64,000 bases of DNA from Pseudomonadales bacterium. Its GTDB lineage: Bacteria; Pseudomonadota; Gammaproteobacteria; Pseudomonadales; UBA7239. The translations under genes were made by a program, and so were the position numbers. Positions 55,193-63,163 of the stretch are shown here, in pieces (positions within the stretch are counted from its first letter, which is position 1; each line of letters opens with the position of its first letter). The notes below the pieces were generated by a model. The model was not told the origin of the DNA, did not search any database, and saw nothing but the letters and a program-made list of their open reading frames with translations. The stretch lies in NCBI GenBank assembly GCA_028280345.1, contig JANQLY010000023.1, positions 124,001 to 188,000 on the forward strand. Reading direction: 5' to 3'.

Positions 55193-55211
55193 GTTTTACA
55201 GTTGCTCTGAT

Positions 55212-55241
55212 AAAAAAGGCGCTCGGTTGAGCGCCTTTTTT
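55212..55241 (+). terminator. Rho-independent terminator of the nitronate monooxygenase gene
   Basis: GGCGCTC-GGTT-GAGCGCC, a perfect 7-bp stem extended by A/T runs on either side, 20 bases after the stop. The A-run on its left makes it usable for the opposite strand too. Confidence 0.93.
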
Positions 55242-55266
55242 ATTTGACTCTATAATTTAATAGCAA

Positions 55267-55620
55267 TTAATCCTCCAGGATGACTACTTTTCTTACTATT
55301 TCTTTTTCTGCTATTTCTTTTAACCTGGAAGCCTGCACTCGCCCAATGATCGTATTTGCTGATCTCAAAAAGTTAAACCTTGCTCCCTCCATATTCAACA
55401 ACTCATGAATTTGCAGTTCATCTTTGGGTGCGGAGCGTTCAACTTGAACCACTCTCTTCTTACTACCAATGGACCTTAAAGCGTCCTGATCATTTTGGTT
55501 AATTTCAACCTGCGCAAATTCACCATTTAAATCAATAGAAACCCGCAGCATTTTATTGCCACGGGCACTATTAACTTTCTCTAAATCAATATTGCTAAAC
55601 TTACTATCCACACTAATCAA
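55267..55620 (-). CDS. Small I9-propeptide-like protein overlapping the subtilase gene
   Basis: 117 residues. The start is probably TTG 55620 (AGG five bases upstream), overlapping the protease stop by 8 bp, so translation is coupled. The C-terminal segment NTIIGRVQASRLKEIAEKEI then VRKVVILED has the strand-helix-strand order of the second half of an inhibitor I9 propeptide, ending where I9 domains end. The first half (RVSIDLNGEFAQVEI) is beta-rich. No signal peptide. It could be a trans-acting chaperone or inhibitor of the protease. The resemblance is by eye and moderate. AT-rich like its partner. Confidence 0.72.
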   Translation of the reverse strand: MISVDSKFSNIDLEKVNSARGNKMLRVSIDLNGEFAQVEINQNDQDALRSIGSKKRVVQVERSAPKDELQIHELLNMEGARFNFLRSANTIIGRVQASRLKEIAEKEIVRKVVILED

Positions 55621-57190
55621 TATAGCCTAATTCCCGGGCATAACCCATAGCTCGCAGCACATTCAACCGCCCGACACCAAAACGATGATCTTGCCCAGCC
55701 TCTCCTACATCCTCCACTGAACCATTCAAAAGATCTTGTAGCAAATATGCGCGCTCATTAGCGGGCACCGTATCACGAATATTTGTACCACTTAAAAGCA
55801 AAGCAAGCGCCCCTGCAACATGAGGAGTCGCCATAGAGCTACCATTGTATGCCTCATATTTACCTCGTGGTATTGACGATAAAACCCCCACACCAGGTGC
55901 AGATATATCTGGTTTTGAATACACCAAAGGTAAGTATTTTTTATTAATATACTGAGATGAATCAATATATTGTGTTCTACCACCTGAAAAACCAGCCACT
56001 CGATCCAGAGGATCTGTTGCCCCAACCGTATATGAAAAATAGTCATTACCCGGAGAGCCACTAGTCTGACTACCATCATTACCAATAGCAACCACAACCG
56101 GTATACCAAGCTGATTAGCCGAAATTACCATACGCGTATATACATCAAGTACCCGGGGGTCAAAACTTAACGAGCCCAATGACATTGATATGATGTCCGC
56201 GCCATTATCAATAGCCCACTGCATTCCTGCTAAAATTTGAAAGTCGCTACCTTGCCCTCTGGGCAAAACTGTTCCAGCCATTAAAGTTGCTTCCGGTGCA
56301 ACTCCAATCCACTGCCCGGAAGCATTTCCCCCGGCAATCGTTCCAGCACAATGGGTACCATGTGTATGTGTATCTCTCGGTGCTCTATAGATAGCATTAC
56401 CATCTCTATCAAATTCCACATAATATCTGTCATCAAAACTATCAATCAGATCAGGGTGGGAAGCATCAATCCCCGTATCCAACACAGCGACTTTAACGCC
56501 TTCTCCTCTAACATCATATGCCCCCCACACACTCATTGCCCCTATTGCTTCAACCCCCCATGCAGAAGTCTTGTTATCTGTGACCGATGAAGGCAATCGG
56601 CTTACATCCATTTTTGCTATCGGTGGCAAGTTAATATTGCGATTAGGGAACACATTCGCAATAGCAATACCAGACATCTCATCCACTAAACTATGAAGAT
56701 CATCCCGATGGATGTCCATTGCAACGGTCTTCGCAGCCCACAATTCATGGTACGCCTTTTCAGGAAAAACCTTACTATTTTTCCAGCGATTATCAATTGC
56801 TCCTTTGATATGAGAATCAGACACAAAGCGCTTTAAATTTTTTAACGAATCTGATTTAGCCTCTCTAGCCGCTTTAGGACTAACTCTCATATTGACCGCC
56901 ATCTGTGAGATACTATTGGAGTTACTAATATTTTTCTGTCTATCTCTTCTGGAAAGCCTGCGAATTCTCCTCAATTCCGTACAACTAGGTGGCAACATAT
57001 CCCTTGGACTACCCAAAATAGTTCTATTATGTAAATTTTTTGCAGCAGCTTCGTACAACTCAATTCCACTATCATCATCATCTGCCAACTGAATCAATAC
57101 TTGCTGATTCCTGTTACTATTTTCATCCAGTATTTGCTCTATTTGCCTGTTGATAGATTTGCTTTTTTTACCAACAACTCTGACAACCAT
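55613..57190 (-). CDS. Subtilisin-like serine protease (S8), apparently cytosolic
   Basis: 525 residues. Triad D238 (VAVLDTGIDASHPDL), H277 (HTHGTHCAG) and S452 (NGSSMATPHVAGA), oxyanion N371 (VVVAIGNDGS). The first 230 residues carry no signal peptide; residues 153-185 (AAKTVAMDIHRDDLHSLVDE, then ANVFPNR) resemble the end of an I9-type prodomain. A GGGAG box eight bases before ATG 57190. AT-rich compared with neighbours. Fused directly (8-bp overlap) to the small gene downstream. Proteolytic, substrate unknown. An internal or phage-defence role is conceivable but not shown. Confidence 0.88.
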   Translation of the reverse strand: MVVRVVGKKSKSINRQIEQILDENSNRNQQVLIQLADDDDSGIELYEAAAKNLHNRTILGSPRDMLPPSCTELRRIRRLSRRDRQKNISNSNSISQMAVNMRVSPKAAREAKSDSLKNLKRFVSDSHIKGAIDNRWKNSKVFPEKAYHELWAAKTVAMDIHRDDLHSLVDEMSGIAIANVFPNRNINLPPIAKMDVSRLPSSVTDNKTSAWGVEAIGAMSVWGAYDVRGEGVKVAVLDTGIDASHPDLIDSFDDRYYVEFDRDGNAIYRAPRDTHTHGTHCAGTIAGGNASGQWIGVAPEATLMAGTVLPRGQGSDFQILAGMQWAIDNGADIISMSLGSLSFDPRVLDVYTRMVISANQLGIPVVVAIGNDGSQTSGSPGNDYFSYTVGATDPLDRVAGFSGGRTQYIDSSQYINKKYLPLVYSKPDISAPGVGVLSSIPRGKYEAYNGSSMATPHVAGALALLLSGTNIRDTVPANERAYLLQDLLNGSVEDVGEAGQDHRFGVGRLNVLRAMGYARELGYID

Positions 57191-57285: not shown

Positions 57286-57301
57286 CTACCCGGACGGGTA
57301 G
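57286..57301. terminator. Hairpin between the subtilase and GNAT genes
   Basis: CTACCCG-GA-CGGGTAG, a 7-bp perfect stem, with TTTTG on the plus strand and CTTTCTT after it on the minus strand. It lies 35 bases past the GNAT stop, where a minus-strand terminator would be expected. The T-tract is weak. Confidence 0.5.
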
Positions 57302-57944: not shown

Positions 57945-59168
57945 TCAGGTCGTTTTAATTGTAAAGTTTTTGCTGTTGCCACTTTTATAATCGGTAAACT
58001 TGACCTGCACCGGTATTTTTTTCAGAAACTTTAATGGACCACCGGTTTTAATCAGCTTACGCAGAGCGCTGCGCACTTTGGTTTCACTCTCTCCGTCAAT
58101 GGTAATATCAAACAGTACACTTTCGCAGGAACCTTTGCGCTCACGGTGCCAGTCGATCAGCTTGTCAGTAGCCGTATTAAACGGCACTGTAAAGCGGTTA
58201 TAGTCTTCACTAACGGTGCGAACCACATACTGATACTTGTTCGAAAACAAACCGGATTTGGTCTTGCGCTCGTTGAACCACGCGCCCTGTTTGAGAGCCT
58301 GTTTGGGCTCCGGCGCTTTCTTTTTCACTTCATCTTTTAGACCGCCACGGGTAACTTTAGTGCCACTCACAAACTCACCGGTTTCACGCAGTTGCCTTGC
58401 TGCATTCATCACCTGCTCGCAGGTTTGAAAACGCTGGTCGATATTTTTCGCCAGCATTTTTTCAAGAAAATGCTGGGCTTTGGCAAGCTTGCCAGTGAGA
58501 CGCGGAATCGGCTCTTTAAGATGTTTCATCGCCAGAGCCATATAGTCCTCTGATTCGTAGGGCACCTGGCGCATCAGCATTTCGTAAAACATAATACCGA
58601 GCGCATAGATATCACTGCGCCCATCAAGGTCGCGACCCTGAATCTGCTCCGGGCTCATGTATTTGGGTGTACCAAGTACCGCGCCGGCAACTGTCATACC
58701 ATCGCTTGCATCCTGGCGACGCGCAATACCGAAATCCATGAGTACTGCGGAATGGTCATCGCGAAACATAATATTTTCCGGTTTTACATCGCGATGAATA
58801 ATGCCTTTACTATGGGCGTAATTCAGGGCATCGGCTACCTGCTCGATAATCACCAGCGCCTCTTCAAGTTCCAGCCCCGCCTTGGCCAAACCATCAAGCG
58901 TCCCCCCCGGCAGGTACTCCATACTCATATAGTAGTAACCTTCGAGGCTACCGAAATCATAAACGGGAATAATATGGCGATGACTCAATTGCGCAACGGT
59001 TTTTGCCTCACGTAAAAAACGCGCGGCGAACTCTTCGTCGGCTATGGTTTTCGGTTCAAGGATTTTTACTGCAACCTTGCGATCAAAGGCTTCCTGGACG
59101 CCAAGGTAGACTGCGGCCATACCCCCCTGCCCGACTTTGCGCTCCAGTTTGTGACCCGGTAATTTCAT
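57945..59168 (-). CDS. Ser/Thr protein kinase, PknB-like, with a C-terminal domain of unknown type
   Basis: 407 residues. Kinase core residues 1-260: Gly loop VGQGGMAAVYLG, K35 in VAVKILEP, HRDVKPEN with D127, DFG (145-147) and APE-type GTPKYMSPEQI. Eukaryotic-like (Hanks) kinase. Residues 320-407 form a small domain (FTVPFNTATDKLIDWHRERK ... VKFTDYKSGNSKNF) not recognised. No membrane helix. Its start overlaps by four bases the small membrane protein gene upstream. In many bacteria such kinases act with FHA and PP2C partners, all encoded here. Confidence 0.93.
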   Translation of the reverse strand: MKLPGHKLERKVGQGGMAAVYLGVQEAFDRKVAVKILEPKTIADEEFAARFLREAKTVAQLSHRHIIPVYDFGSLEGYYYMSMEYLPGGTLDGLAKAGLELEEALVIIEQVADALNYAHSKGIIHRDVKPENIMFRDDHSAVLMDFGIARRQDASDGMTVAGAVLGTPKYMSPEQIQGRDLDGRSDIYALGIMFYEMLMRQVPYESEDYMALAMKHLKEPIPRLTGKLAKAQHFLEKMLAKNIDQRFQTCEQVMNAARQLRETGEFVSGTKVTRGGLKDEVKKKAPEPKQALKQGAWFNERKTKSGLFSNKYQYVVRTVSEDYNRFTVPFNTATDKLIDWHRERKGSCESVLFDITIDGESETKVRSALRKLIKTGGPLKFLKKIPVQVKFTDYKSGNSKNFTIKTT

Positions 59169-59410
59169 TGATTCAAGGCCATCTTGCTTGTGGTTGCCCC
59201 TTGCTGTGGTTCCTGCAGTTCTTTGTAGCTATGCAGCTTCAACAGATAAAGCCAAAAGCCTAATATAGCGGAAAATATCCCCAAACAACATAAGCGAATT
59301 AATATCTCTGTACTGAGCGTACATGCCGGGCTTTGTACCAGACCTGGCGTTAAGGTATTTCCGGAAAACATAGCTGGAAAACATAGCCAAGCCTGCCGCC
59401 AAAGCGACAA
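59165..59410 (-). CDS. Small single-helix membrane protein coupled to the kinase gene
   Basis: 81 residues from TTG 59410; ATG 59371 (MFSGNTLTPG) is an alternative giving 68. One transmembrane helix, ILIRLCCLGIFSAILGFWLY, with a Lys/His flank, then a polar Gln/Glu tail. The stop overlaps the kinase start as ATGA, the usual sign of coupling, and the coding frame fills most of a 266-bp gap. No family recognised. If real, it could tether or modulate the soluble kinase. Confidence 0.45.
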   Translation of the reverse strand: MSLWRQAWLCFPAMFSGNTLTPGLVQSPACTLSTEILIRLCCLGIFSAILGFWLYLLKLHSYKELQEPQQGATTSKMALNQ

Positions 59411-59434
59411 ACTATTAAACTGTTTGAAAATTAA

Positions 59435-59800
59435 TCAGGAGCGCGAGGAGCCTTCAAGAATCTGGGCCGTTTTATCGAGCTGCGGCTCGTCCTCGTCAAT
59501 AAATTTGAAGTTGTTCCAGGCGATCCGCACCAGATCACCACTGCCAAGTTTGCGCTCGTCTTCAACCTTGATGTCGTTGATAAAGGTACCGTTCGTGCTG
59601 CCGAGGTCTTTAATCACAAACTCGTAATAGCCTTCGAAATACTCGTTTTCACGCGCCTCAATCACCGCGTGGTTACCGCTCACAGAAATATCATCAATTG
59701 CGATATCACAATCCGGGTGACGCCCAATACTGTGGGTTTGTTTATCAAGGGGAAACTTATTGACCACGACCCCATCAACCAGTTGTGCCAGAATTGCCAT
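59435..59800 (-). CDS. FHA-domain protein
   Basis: 121 residues, one forkhead-associated domain that binds phosphothreonine peptides. Key residues: GRHPDCDIAIDD (Arg), SVSGNHAVIE (Ser and His), IKDLGSTNGTFINDIKVED (Asn-Gly). An N-terminal LVDGVVVNKFPLDKQTH strand pair begins the fold. It should read threonines phosphorylated by one of the flanking kinases. Gap of 160 bp to the PP2C gene upstream contains only a short tandem repeat. Confidence 0.93.
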   Translation of the reverse strand: MAILAQLVDGVVVNKFPLDKQTHSIGRHPDCDIAIDDISVSGNHAVIEARENEYFEGYYEFVIKDLGSTNGTFINDIKVEDERKLGSGDLVRIAWNNFKFIDEDEPQLDKTAQILEGSSRS

Positions 59801-59827
59801 ATTATTGCTCGACCTCTTTTGACGCTT

Positions 59828-59858
59828 TATCGATCTATCGATTATCTACCTATCGATT
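59828..59858. repeat. Three TATCGAT(C/T) repeats
   Basis: TATCGATC and TATCGATT lie head to tail at 59828-59843; a third TATCGATT is at 59851-59858 after ATCTACC. They stand in the gap between the FHA and PP2C genes, just upstream of the FHA start. Function unknown; ATCGAT palindromes may be a binding site. Confidence 0.7.
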
Positions 59859-59960
59859 GCCTGTTGACTGCTATCTACTACGTACCGCCGAAAAGGCCAT
59901 TGTATCGACTGTACCGGAGCAAGAAAAGGTACTTTTACCTCTACAATCTGATCCAGAGCA

Positions 59961-60695
59961 CTAGTGGCCGACAACCTCGACTACTATAACAGTGACATTA
60001 TCGGTTACCTTGTGGGCGAGACTTTGCTCCACCAGCAGTTCAACACAGTCTTCCACACTGTTAAATTCATTACTGACAATTTCGCTGATCTGCTCAAAAC
60101 TCAGGGTATTGGTCAGCCCGTCAGAGCATAATAACAGGCGATCACCACTGTAAACCGGTTGGGCCATATAGGTAAATTCGACAATTTCCTGGGCCGCCCC
60201 CAGGGAGTTGGTGAGCAGATTGCGAAACGGGCTATTGTCAATTTCGTCTTCTGTAATCGCCCCACCATCCAGCATTTGCTGTACAACAGAGTGATCACGA
60301 GTCACCTGATTGAACTCTCCACCCTGTAGCAAATACGCGCGTGAATCACCCGCATAGCAGATATGGGCGACGCTCTCCTCAAAATACGCGGCGACTAACG
60401 TTGTGCCCATTTTCGCCAGCTGTTCACTGTCTTTGGAACGCTGGCGTATCGCACAGTGGGCCACATTGCCCGCACCACTCATCGCATATTGTGGCGGATC
60501 AGCATCCAGGCGACGCGGTAGCTCATCAAGAAAGCAGGTCACCGCAAGATCGCTTGCCACTTCGCCACCATTGTGCCCACCCATGCCATCTGCAACGACG
60601 GTAATCAATCCACTTTCCGTACGAATGATGCCGTAGGCATCCTCGTTATTTTTACGCAGACAACCAATGTCGGTTTTACCCGCTACTTTATGCAC
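59961..60695 (-). CDS. PP2C-family Ser/Thr protein phosphatase
   Basis: 244 residues, Stp/PrpC type. Metal and phosphate-binding motifs: DIGCLRKNNEDAYG (Arg/Asp), VVADGMGGHNGGEVAS (Asp-Gly), CYAGDSRAYL, LLLCSDGLTN and DNVTVIVVE. Dephosphorylates Ser/Thr sites made by Hanks kinases and needs Mn or Mg. Start ATG 60695, 26 bp after the CHASE2 kinase stop, so they should share a transcript. Confidence 0.95.
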   Translation of the reverse strand: MHKVAGKTDIGCLRKNNEDAYGIIRTESGLITVVADGMGGHNGGEVASDLAVTCFLDELPRRLDADPPQYAMSGAGNVAHCAIRQRSKDSEQLAKMGTTLVAAYFEESVAHICYAGDSRAYLLQGGEFNQVTRDHSVVQQMLDGGAITEDEIDNSPFRNLLTNSLGAAQEIVEFTYMAQPVYSGDRLLLCSDGLTNTLSFEQISEIVSNEFNSVEDCVELLVEQSLAHKVTDNVTVIVVEVVGH

Positions 60696-60721
60696 ATTTC
60701 CCCCCTGTTCAGACCTGTCAA

Positions 60722-63163
60722 TTACAGGCCTTTGTCGAGCTGTTTATGTAACACTTCGGCAAATTGATAAGCTGACTCGAAGCGCTTGTCCGGTTTTTTA
60801 TGCAACGCCTTGCTAATGATACGCTGCGCACTCGCCGGCAAATCCGGATTAATTTCTGCCACACTCGGATATTTGCTGTGAATAATCTCATAGGTAAGAC
60901 TTGCCAACGTATCACCCTTGAACGGCAGTTGACCACACAGCAACTGATAAAATGTCACACCGAGACTGAAAATATCTGTCTGACCATTGACCTTTTCACC
61001 TTTGAGTTGTTCCGGCGACATATACAATGGGCTACCAATAATATCACCAGTACGCGTACTCGAATTATCGGCAATACGTGCAATGCCGAAGTCCGCCACC
61101 TTGACCTCTTGCTTTTCAGGGTCATACATAATATTGCTCGGCTTGATATCGCGATGGATGATATTTTGCTCGTGGGCATAACCCAATGCATTGGCTACTT
61201 CTGCCACGAGCCAGTAAACTTCTTCCACATCGAGTAATTCACCCGGTTTGGTATAGGCACTGAGCGGCTCACCGTTGACATAGTCCATCGCAATAAAAGC
61301 GAGATCCGGTTCCTCACCTACATCGTAGACGGTGACAATATTCGGGTGATTGAGACGGCCCGCCGCTTCCGCTTCGCGGAAAAAACGCGCTTTTACTTCA
61401 TCTATTTCACTTGGCGGGAACTGGGCATAGCTCAGTGTCTTGATCGCCACCTGACGTGAGATTTTCGGATCGTGGCCGAGATAAACAATACCCATTGCAC
61501 CGCGACCCAATTCGCAATCAATTTCATAACGGCCAAGTACCGGTTTTGTATCAGAGCCCTGATTAAGCACCATCGTTTGTACGGCGGTCGCCTCCAGGCT
61601 ATTACTATTTTGTTGTTGTGCTTCCTGAAGTTTTTTCGCACGCTTTGCTGCATCGCGAAAATTGCGTTTACGCCGGGCAAGATCCGCATAGATTTCTGCA
61701 GCGCGTTGAAACTGTCGCTTGCGTTCCATACCCGCCGCAATTTCATAGGTGAGATCAAGTACCGGCTTGTGTGGCTGGCAACGCTTTAACACTTTGAGTG
61801 CTTCATCCCAGTCAGATTGTTTGTAAAGGGACTTCGCCAGACGCAAGGCATACAGATCTGACTCTTTTTTCAGCACATTGACGTATTGCCGCTGCATCTG
61901 CCACAGCAGCATAAACAATTGCCCTGCAAGTAAATAGGTCAGCAGTAACCCCGAAGGTAACCAAAGCCATTGCGTAACCTGCAAACCGGCCTGCACCACC
62001 ACAATCGCAGAAGCAATAAAGGCAGTAACCAGCAAACCGAGATTCACTCTCAACAGTGGCAATAGCACGAGCAGATAGACGGCGAGTAACAACAGGACTC
62101 CCTTCTCCACCCAGACGTACCAGTACGGTATTGTGTACCAGGCTTTATCCTGCAAACTTTGCAAGGTCAGCGCCGCATTATTTGCAGCAACACTATCCTT
62201 GACGCCGATCACGACGGTTTTTTCATGCAGTGACTTCAGCGCCCCACTCTTGTTCAAATCACTCAGGGGCAAGCGCACAATCTCCGGCGCAATACCTGTT
62301 GCTACGGAGTAAACGGGATAGATACGGCCATCAGGAGAAACCGGCAGTGATTCATCGCCGAGCAAAATAGCTTCGCGACGCAACCAAGCCAGTTGCTTCA
62401 TGCCCTGCTGTTTTGCAAGTACCTGGACCACGGCATCGGCAAACACATCATCTCCCACCTGCCACAGCAGTGGATAGTCAGACATGACATTGGCAGGCGC
62501 ATAAAGGGGTGCCGCAAACACCTTGGATTCGTAGCGAAACTGCGCTAGCGATGGAGTAGCAAATGACAGATGCCCGGGTAACCAGTCGAGGTAGTCCTGA
62601 CGAGCCGAATCCTGCACTGGCAAGCGCTGGGCTTCGCGTAGATAACGCACCGAACCATCGTCGCTGCTTCCAGCTGATACGCCCAACACGAGAGCGCCAT
62701 CCAGTATCATGGCGAGAAAGCCATCGTAGCGGCGCTCCAGCGCTTTGAGCTCAGACCACAATCCAGCCTTTTTAATTTGCTCACTAACACCGGGATTATC
62801 ACCGAGGCGACGCACCGCAAAGTCTGCTGCATAATTATCTACATAGGGTACTTCCGGCACAACGAGCAGAACGCCTTTGGTGTAAGTACTTTTTAACTGT
62901 TCGAGAAGCTTCGATAGTGCGAGCGCACCGGATGAATCGTTGAGCAAGCGTTCCATTTCACGCGCGGGCACTTCAATCTGAACGATCTGTCCGGTAACTG
63001 GTGGCTTCGGTGTCAGGCGAGCGCCGACTTGAAACAGCCAATGATTCGCAGTATGCAGATAACTGGATGAAAGTGGACCGGCGAGCAACACCAGCGTTAC
63101 CAAAACAAACAACGTCCGCAAGGTAAACAGGCTGGATAATACTTTAAGTGCTGTGTTTAGCAT
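60722..63163 (-). CDS. CHASE2-type membrane Ser/Thr protein kinase
   Basis: 813 residues. An N-terminal helix (about 12-32), a periplasmic CHASE2-like sensor (about 40-345), three membrane helices (about 353-422), a TPR-like linker (about 430-515: DWDEALKVLKRCQP, FQRAAEIYADLARR) and a C-terminal Hanks kinase (546-810). Gly loop GRGAMGIVYLG, K575 in VAIKTL, HRDIKPSN with D672, DFG 691-693. Unusually, the kinase is C-terminal to the sensor. It likely senses an extracytoplasmic signal and starts the FHA/PP2C cascade encoded just downstream. Confidence 0.93.
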   Translation of the reverse strand: MLNTALKVLSSLFTLRTLFVLVTLVLLAGPLSSSYLHTANHWLFQVGARLTPKPPVTGQIVQIEVPAREMERLLNDSSGALALSKLLEQLKSTYTKGVLLVVPEVPYVDNYAADFAVRRLGDNPGVSEQIKKAGLWSELKALERRYDGFLAMILDGALVLGVSAGSSDDGSVRYLREAQRLPVQDSARQDYLDWLPGHLSFATPSLAQFRYESKVFAAPLYAPANVMSDYPLLWQVGDDVFADAVVQVLAKQQGMKQLAWLRREAILLGDESLPVSPDGRIYPVYSVATGIAPEIVRLPLSDLNKSGALKSLHEKTVVIGVKDSVAANNAALTLQSLQDKAWYTIPYWYVWVEKGVLLLLAVYLLVLLPLLRVNLGLLVTAFIASAIVVVQAGLQVTQWLWLPSGLLLTYLLAGQLFMLLWQMQRQYVNVLKKESDLYALRLAKSLYKQSDWDEALKVLKRCQPHKPVLDLTYEIAAGMERKRQFQRAAEIYADLARRKRNFRDAAKRAKKLQEAQQQNSNSLEATAVQTMVLNQGSDTKPVLGRYEIDCELGRGAMGIVYLGHDPKISRQVAIKTLSYAQFPPSEIDEVKARFFREAEAAGRLNHPNIVTVYDVGEEPDLAFIAMDYVNGEPLSAYTKPGELLDVEEVYWLVAEVANALGYAHEQNIIHRDIKPSNIMYDPEKQEVKVADFGIARIADNSSTRTGDIIGSPLYMSPEQLKGEKVNGQTDIFSLGVTFYQLLCGQLPFKGDTLASLTYEIIHSKYPSVAEINPDLPASAQRIISKALHKKPDKRFESAYQFAEVLHKQLDKGL

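Follow-up and report, generated by a model that had tools for sequence, protein, structure and literature searches.

A leaderless subtilase and an adjacent prodomain-like gene as a candidate two-part regulatory module in a Pseudomonadales bacterium

Analysis of a 64,000-nucleotide stretch of DNA from a Pseudomonadales bacterium (the whole stretch is called the window below) revealed a gene pair on the minus strand, encoding a subtilase and a small prodomain-like protein. We give about even chances to the reading that the two products constitute one regulatory module, in which a subtilase zymogen of the cytosol is paired with a tailless, prodomain-like regulator encoded by its own gene. The S8 subtilase (55613..57190, minus strand, 525 aa, triad D238/H277/S452 intact, no signal peptide) was assigned by its ORF, its Pfam match and an alignment of homologues, and the small trans protein (55267..55620, minus strand, 117 aa from a TTG start) by its ORF, a structural model and a family profile. 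Both ORFs were recovered where an earlier reading of the DNA letters (the sequence-only reading) had placed them. The overlap of 8 bp described in that reading is present with the TTG start, while a GTG three codons further on (55609-55611) gives a protein of 114 aa and a gap of 1 nt to the protease gene, so that the overlap is uncertain.

In single-sequence searches, the small protein alone had no match in Pfam, NCBIfam, PADLOC or the PDB sequences, and the profile of its family gave only chance-level matches to PDB sequences. Matches to DUF6374 and RSRP in Pfam stayed below the cut-off and were taken as chance. A profile made from six distant homologues, with the window copy left out, placed the small ORF first among the 793 ORFs of the window (E = 0.0021; next ORF 3.3), which argues that it is more than a chance reading frame. 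A 15-bp hairpin without mismatches, bordered on either side by T/A tracts (55210..55243, no strand assigned), is a likely two-way terminator between an NMO gene and the pair, and a terminator-like hairpin (57286..57301, minus strand) separates the pair from the GNAT and kinase genes on the other flank. Since hairpins flank both sides, the pair is probably a transcription unit of its own.

With a GC content of 42.1%, compared with 49.1% in the window, the pair is within the lowest 0.6% of 1.9-kb stretches, in line with its earlier description as AT-rich. Its location between unrelated genes was likewise confirmed, with NMO on one flank and, on the opposite one, GNAT and the kinase/FHA/PP2C genes; synteny in relatives indicated that the kinase/FHA/PP2C cluster has no relation to the pair. 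This cluster (57945-63163) comprises two Ser/Thr kinases, an FHA protein and a PP2C phosphatase, and the kinase at 60722-63163 has a long N-terminal region ahead of its kinase domain. Neither a tRNA nor flanking direct repeats that would mark the edge of an island were found around the pair. For an empty-site comparison, the contig of the nearest relative stops just past NMO, and synteny with the GNAT and kinase neighbours is lacking elsewhere.

The catalytic domain of the protease (residues 229-507; 55670..56506, minus strand) matches Peptidase S8 (PF00082) with 178 bits against a cut-off of 21.8. D238, H277 and S452 are conserved in all seven homologues, and the oxyanion residue N371 is intact. 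Hydrophobicity analysis of both proteins from the window and from Piscinibacter showed no hydrophobic core in the first 45 residues, thus no start resembling a signal peptide, and this agrees with the cytosolic location that had been proposed for the protease.

N-terminal to the catalytic domain, a prodomain-like unit in cis was delimited by AlphaFold2 secondary structure (residues 26-189; 56624..57115, minus strand). The model places a first strand at 28-35, follows it with an extended helical insertion over about residues 41-136, and ends in a strand-strand-helix-strand segment (147-182). The segment resembling the end of a prodomain which had been noticed near residues 153-185 is present in this model (strand 155-161, helix 162-171, strand 177-182) as part of the larger cis unit. 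In a structure search of the PDB, the whole protease model matched unautoprocessed pro-subtilisin E first, and the POIA1-subtilisin complex 1v5i was among the matches listed; the catalytic half of the model is poorly predicted. By sequence, the cis unit matched I9 at noise level, even with the insertion removed, and the evidence for its predicted identity as a prodomain therefore comes from the model and from the relation to the trans family. To this extent, the model supports the second prodomain-like unit, in cis, of the sequence-only reading.

Directly after the last strand of the cis unit, a motif NRxΦxΦP (residues 183-189, NRNINLP; 56624..56644, minus strand) was identified from the homologue alignment in seven out of seven proteases, with P189 invariant. 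In intracellular subtilisins, a LIPY/F motif crosses the active site and places Pro at P1', by which the bond is put out of reach (PMC6220982). By analogy, NRxΦxΦP is proposed as a candidate uncleavable active-site plug, with its Pro at P1'.

Within the trans protein, residues 24-115 (55276..55551, minus strand) make up an I9-like core of the order beta-alpha-beta-beta-alpha-beta. The AlphaFold2 model, built from six sequences with the Piscinibacter copy left out, is of moderate confidence (mean pLDDT 65, core 72-83) and predicts strands at residues 24-31, 80-85, 90-96 and 109-115 and helices at 65-75 and 97-104; the last three elements (90-96, 97-104, 109-115) correspond to the terminal strand-helix-strand that had been suspected from the sequence. 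When this model was searched with Foldseek against 350,542 PDB chains, the top matches were 8c4z_A (prob 0.97, E 0.02) and 3afg (0.93, 0.90), with 3edy, a sedolisin precursor, in fifth place. All three are subtilase or sedolisin prodomains, and because the match list is specific to prodomains, the small protein is read as having a prodomain fold despite modest E-values of 0.02 and above. The predicted fold, with its full six-element order, thus favours the I9-type assignment made previously. Stand-alone single I9-type domains, such as POIA1, yeast IB2 and Arabidopsis SPI-1, inhibit subtilases in trans; these proteins are eukaryotic and are not known to be genetically linked to their protease.

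At the sequence level, the small protein of the window did not match Inhibitor I9 (PF05922), and none of the seven small proteins reached the Pfam cut-off; the Piscinibacter copy scored 14.1 bits against a cut-off of 21.2 (E = 0.077). In profile comparisons, none of 150 column shuffles scored as high as the trans family did against genuine I9 domains, nor did any of 150 against the protease N-terminus. Since the C-terminal halves of the trans family and the cis unit match at E = 3.8e-4 (0 of 100 shuffles), the cis and trans units probably share ancestry, as judged from these profiles.

The expectation that the C-terminal tail of the small protein would sit in the active site was not borne out. 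The trans unit of the window has no tail and ends in ...VVILED, and the candidate plug sits in the cis unit. Four of the seven trans units (window, G521, G493 and G528) stop at most 2-3 residues away from NR/ED, where the last strand ends, and those of G426, G440 and Piscinibacter have short tails with no common motif. The lack of a tail weakens the reading of the small protein as an inhibitor. Inhibition by a tailless unit could still occur, because the propeptide tail of Plasmodium SUB1 is reported to enhance inhibition without being essential for it (PMC6993865). These findings bear directly on the main rival explanation, in which the small protein would act in trans as a foldase, or folding chaperone, serving only as a template on which the catalytic domain folds, a function that subtilisin propeptides can have, and inhibition would be left to the cis unit with its long insertion and proline plug. 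A trans unit that keeps the fold and loses the tail would suit a foldase, as would a small gene fixed beside the protease at all loci, and bacterial subtilase propeptides are described as both chaperone and inhibitor (PMC10580911). However, the protease already carries a prodomain-like unit in cis, and the fold alone cannot tell a chaperone from an inhibitor; we regard the foldase explanation as unlikely.

Relatives of the pair were found outside the order of the window. A plasmid of Piscinibacter gummiphilus (NZ_CP136337.1) encodes a protease which is 47-50% identical by tblastn; directly behind it lies a prodomain-like ORF of 130 aa (L006:2581-2973), absent from the gene table of the record. 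A phylum-wide profile search added five more protease homologues, in the genomes G521, G426, G493, G440 and G528, each followed by an ORF of 113-123 aa belonging to the small-protein family; the G493 protease has lost its N-terminus at a contig end. The pair is therefore adjacent at seven of seven loci, covering all full-length homologues found. Among 48 genomes from the class of G521, which is distant from that of the window, the protease and small-protein profiles matched the same five, with the genes adjacent and no orphan of either; as the profiles were built partly from those five genomes, this shows the absence of orphans and is not an independent discovery. Co-occurrence of the two genes, which the sequence-only reading requires, is strict. 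Over the same pairs of homologues, the small protein is 11-20% identical and the catalytic domain of the protease 52-56%, and judged by these identities the small protein is evolving far faster. At the G426 locus, the gap between protease and small gene is longer than at the others. The stretch between these two genes (L018:11028-11236) gives the translations RRRESRE and LDSRLRGND and resembles a dispersed repeat.

The occurrence of the pair is patchy. Within the order of the window, it was present in one of 392 genomes, the window's own, and no copy was found in the other 391; a sample of 369 genomes taken across the class, one of them that of the window, gave no further copy. No relatives were found on viral contigs. 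Matches to S8 on phages and other plasmids were generic subtilases and not relatives of the pair, and none of the four annotated regions viewed around other plasmid S8 genes had a small prodomain-sized gene behind the protease; a fifth such region carries no annotation.

In some relatives the pair is linked to a NACHT NTPase. At the G440 locus, a NACHT protein of 1,128 residues (Pfam 29.9 bits, cut-off 26.7) ends about 40 bp before the protease gene, and at the contig ends in G426 and G521 the sequence directly upstream of the protease encodes the last 140-150 residues of a NACHT protein. In G521 (L017:1-870), these NACHT C-terminal pieces are in two different reading frames, reflecting either a split gene or an assembly error. 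A NACHT NTPase or its C-terminal part is accordingly located directly upstream at three of the six loci with resolvable upstream sequence; G493 was left out of this count as its contig ends too early. No NACHT gene is found upstream of the pair in the window, in Piscinibacter or in G528, and the small partner gene occurs whether or not a NACHT gene accompanies the protease. A related NACHT protein in G554 is situated at the end of a contig, with nothing readable behind it. The NACHT proteins encoded at L020:5927-9313 and L087:1406-4885 have a C-terminal region of about 150 residues in common. This region, which belongs to no Pfam family, is also what is encoded ahead of the protease in G426 and G521, and it is a candidate protease-coupling domain. 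Bacterial NACHT/STAND conflict systems combine an NTPase sensor with a peptidase component, thought to be off until triggered (PMC7159879). The NACHT genes upstream in relatives provide new support for the idea of a lock plus a trigger.

This linkage also weighs against a secretion switch of the PopC/PopD type, in which the partner would retain a leaderless subtilase until a starvation signal removed that partner, after which the protease would be exported and cut a surface protein. The layout is alike, since PopC is a leaderless subtilase whose N-terminal part has no recognisable domains, and PopD forms a complex with PopC and blocks its secretion (PMC6434023); protease size, calculated from length, is similar as well. 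The NACHT genes of the relatives point instead to a role in conflict, no secretion or target gene adjoins the pair, and a PopC/PopD-like switch is judged improbable. The least credible explanation, and a very doubtful one, is that the protease is a common intracellular subtilisin serving protein turnover and the small protein a diverged accessory: although the best PDB sequence match of the protease is a Bacillus intracellular serine protease and the Pro-containing plug motif resembles LIPY/F, the pair is missing from nearly all relatives and has an atypical GC content, intracellular subtilisins lack a prodomain and carry a short N-terminal extension in that position, and IPI, the reported partner inhibitor of Isp1, has an Ig-like fold (PMC3901451).

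For the module of zymogen and prodomain-like regulator, the analysis documents the genes, the fold models, the motif, the co-occurrence and the NACHT linkage in relatives, and from these we infer inhibition in trans, release, toxicity and a defence role. By analogy with intracellular subtilisins, NRxΦxΦP of the cis unit would lie across the active site, and Pro at P1' would stop self-cleavage. The small protein would most likely dock in trans on the helix-capping surface of the catalytic domain, a position proposed because it has the fold of the cis unit and a homologous C-terminal half. Docked in this way, it would hold the protease inside the cell in a folded, inactive state until a trigger frees the protease. 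In relatives, the trigger would probably be the adjacent NACHT NTPase, making the protease a defence or cell-suicide effector; no trigger gene is encoded near the pair in the window. A full conflict module of zymogen-plus-antitoxin design, with two prodomain-like units of common origin, an uncleavable plug in cis and a removable lock in trans that NACHT releases in some lineages, is a tentative proposal with somewhat less than even chances.

No description of this combination of a protease with a prodomain-like gene was found in the literature. The nearest structural counterpart is SUB1-ProM of Plasmodium, a stand-alone, separately encoded protein of prodomain fold beside subtilase genes, which also has a shortened tail and was also found by structure and not by sequence (PMC6993865). 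Unlike the pair, SUB1-ProM comes from a eukaryote, carries a signal peptide and works within the parasitophorous vacuole, and its inhibition has been measured (PMC6993865), whereas the window pair is bacterial and cytosolic, with a putative inhibitor, and several of its relatives are linked to NACHT genes. A close functional parallel, likened here by description, may be the PopC/PopD system of Myxococcus xanthus, where a partner retains a leaderless subtilase whose N-terminus is uncharacterised; PopC, however, is exported and cuts p25 (PMC6434023). The protease shares with intracellular subtilisins the cytosolic S8 domain, the absence of a signal peptide and, as a candidate, a hydrophobic-Pro plug with Pro at P1' (PMC6220982). 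It differs from them in having a prodomain-like N-terminus of about 190 residues, with NRxΦxΦP in place of a short LIPY/F extension, and a trans copy. The NACHT-linked relatives resemble NACHT/STAND conflict systems in combining an NTPase sensor with a peptidase, but the available part of PMC7159879 describes mainly trypsin- and caspase-like peptidases, subtilisin once and no prodomain-like partner, and the window copy has no NTPase.

If the proposed arrangement is true, a two-part lock would let bacteria harbour a destructive protease within the cytosol, and the pair would offer a compact, testable link from NACHT-type sensors to subtilase effectors. Small prodomain-like partners escape annotation, as illustrated by the unannotated Piscinibacter copy and by the I9 scores of the family, and more such pairs may hide beside orphan intracellular subtilases.
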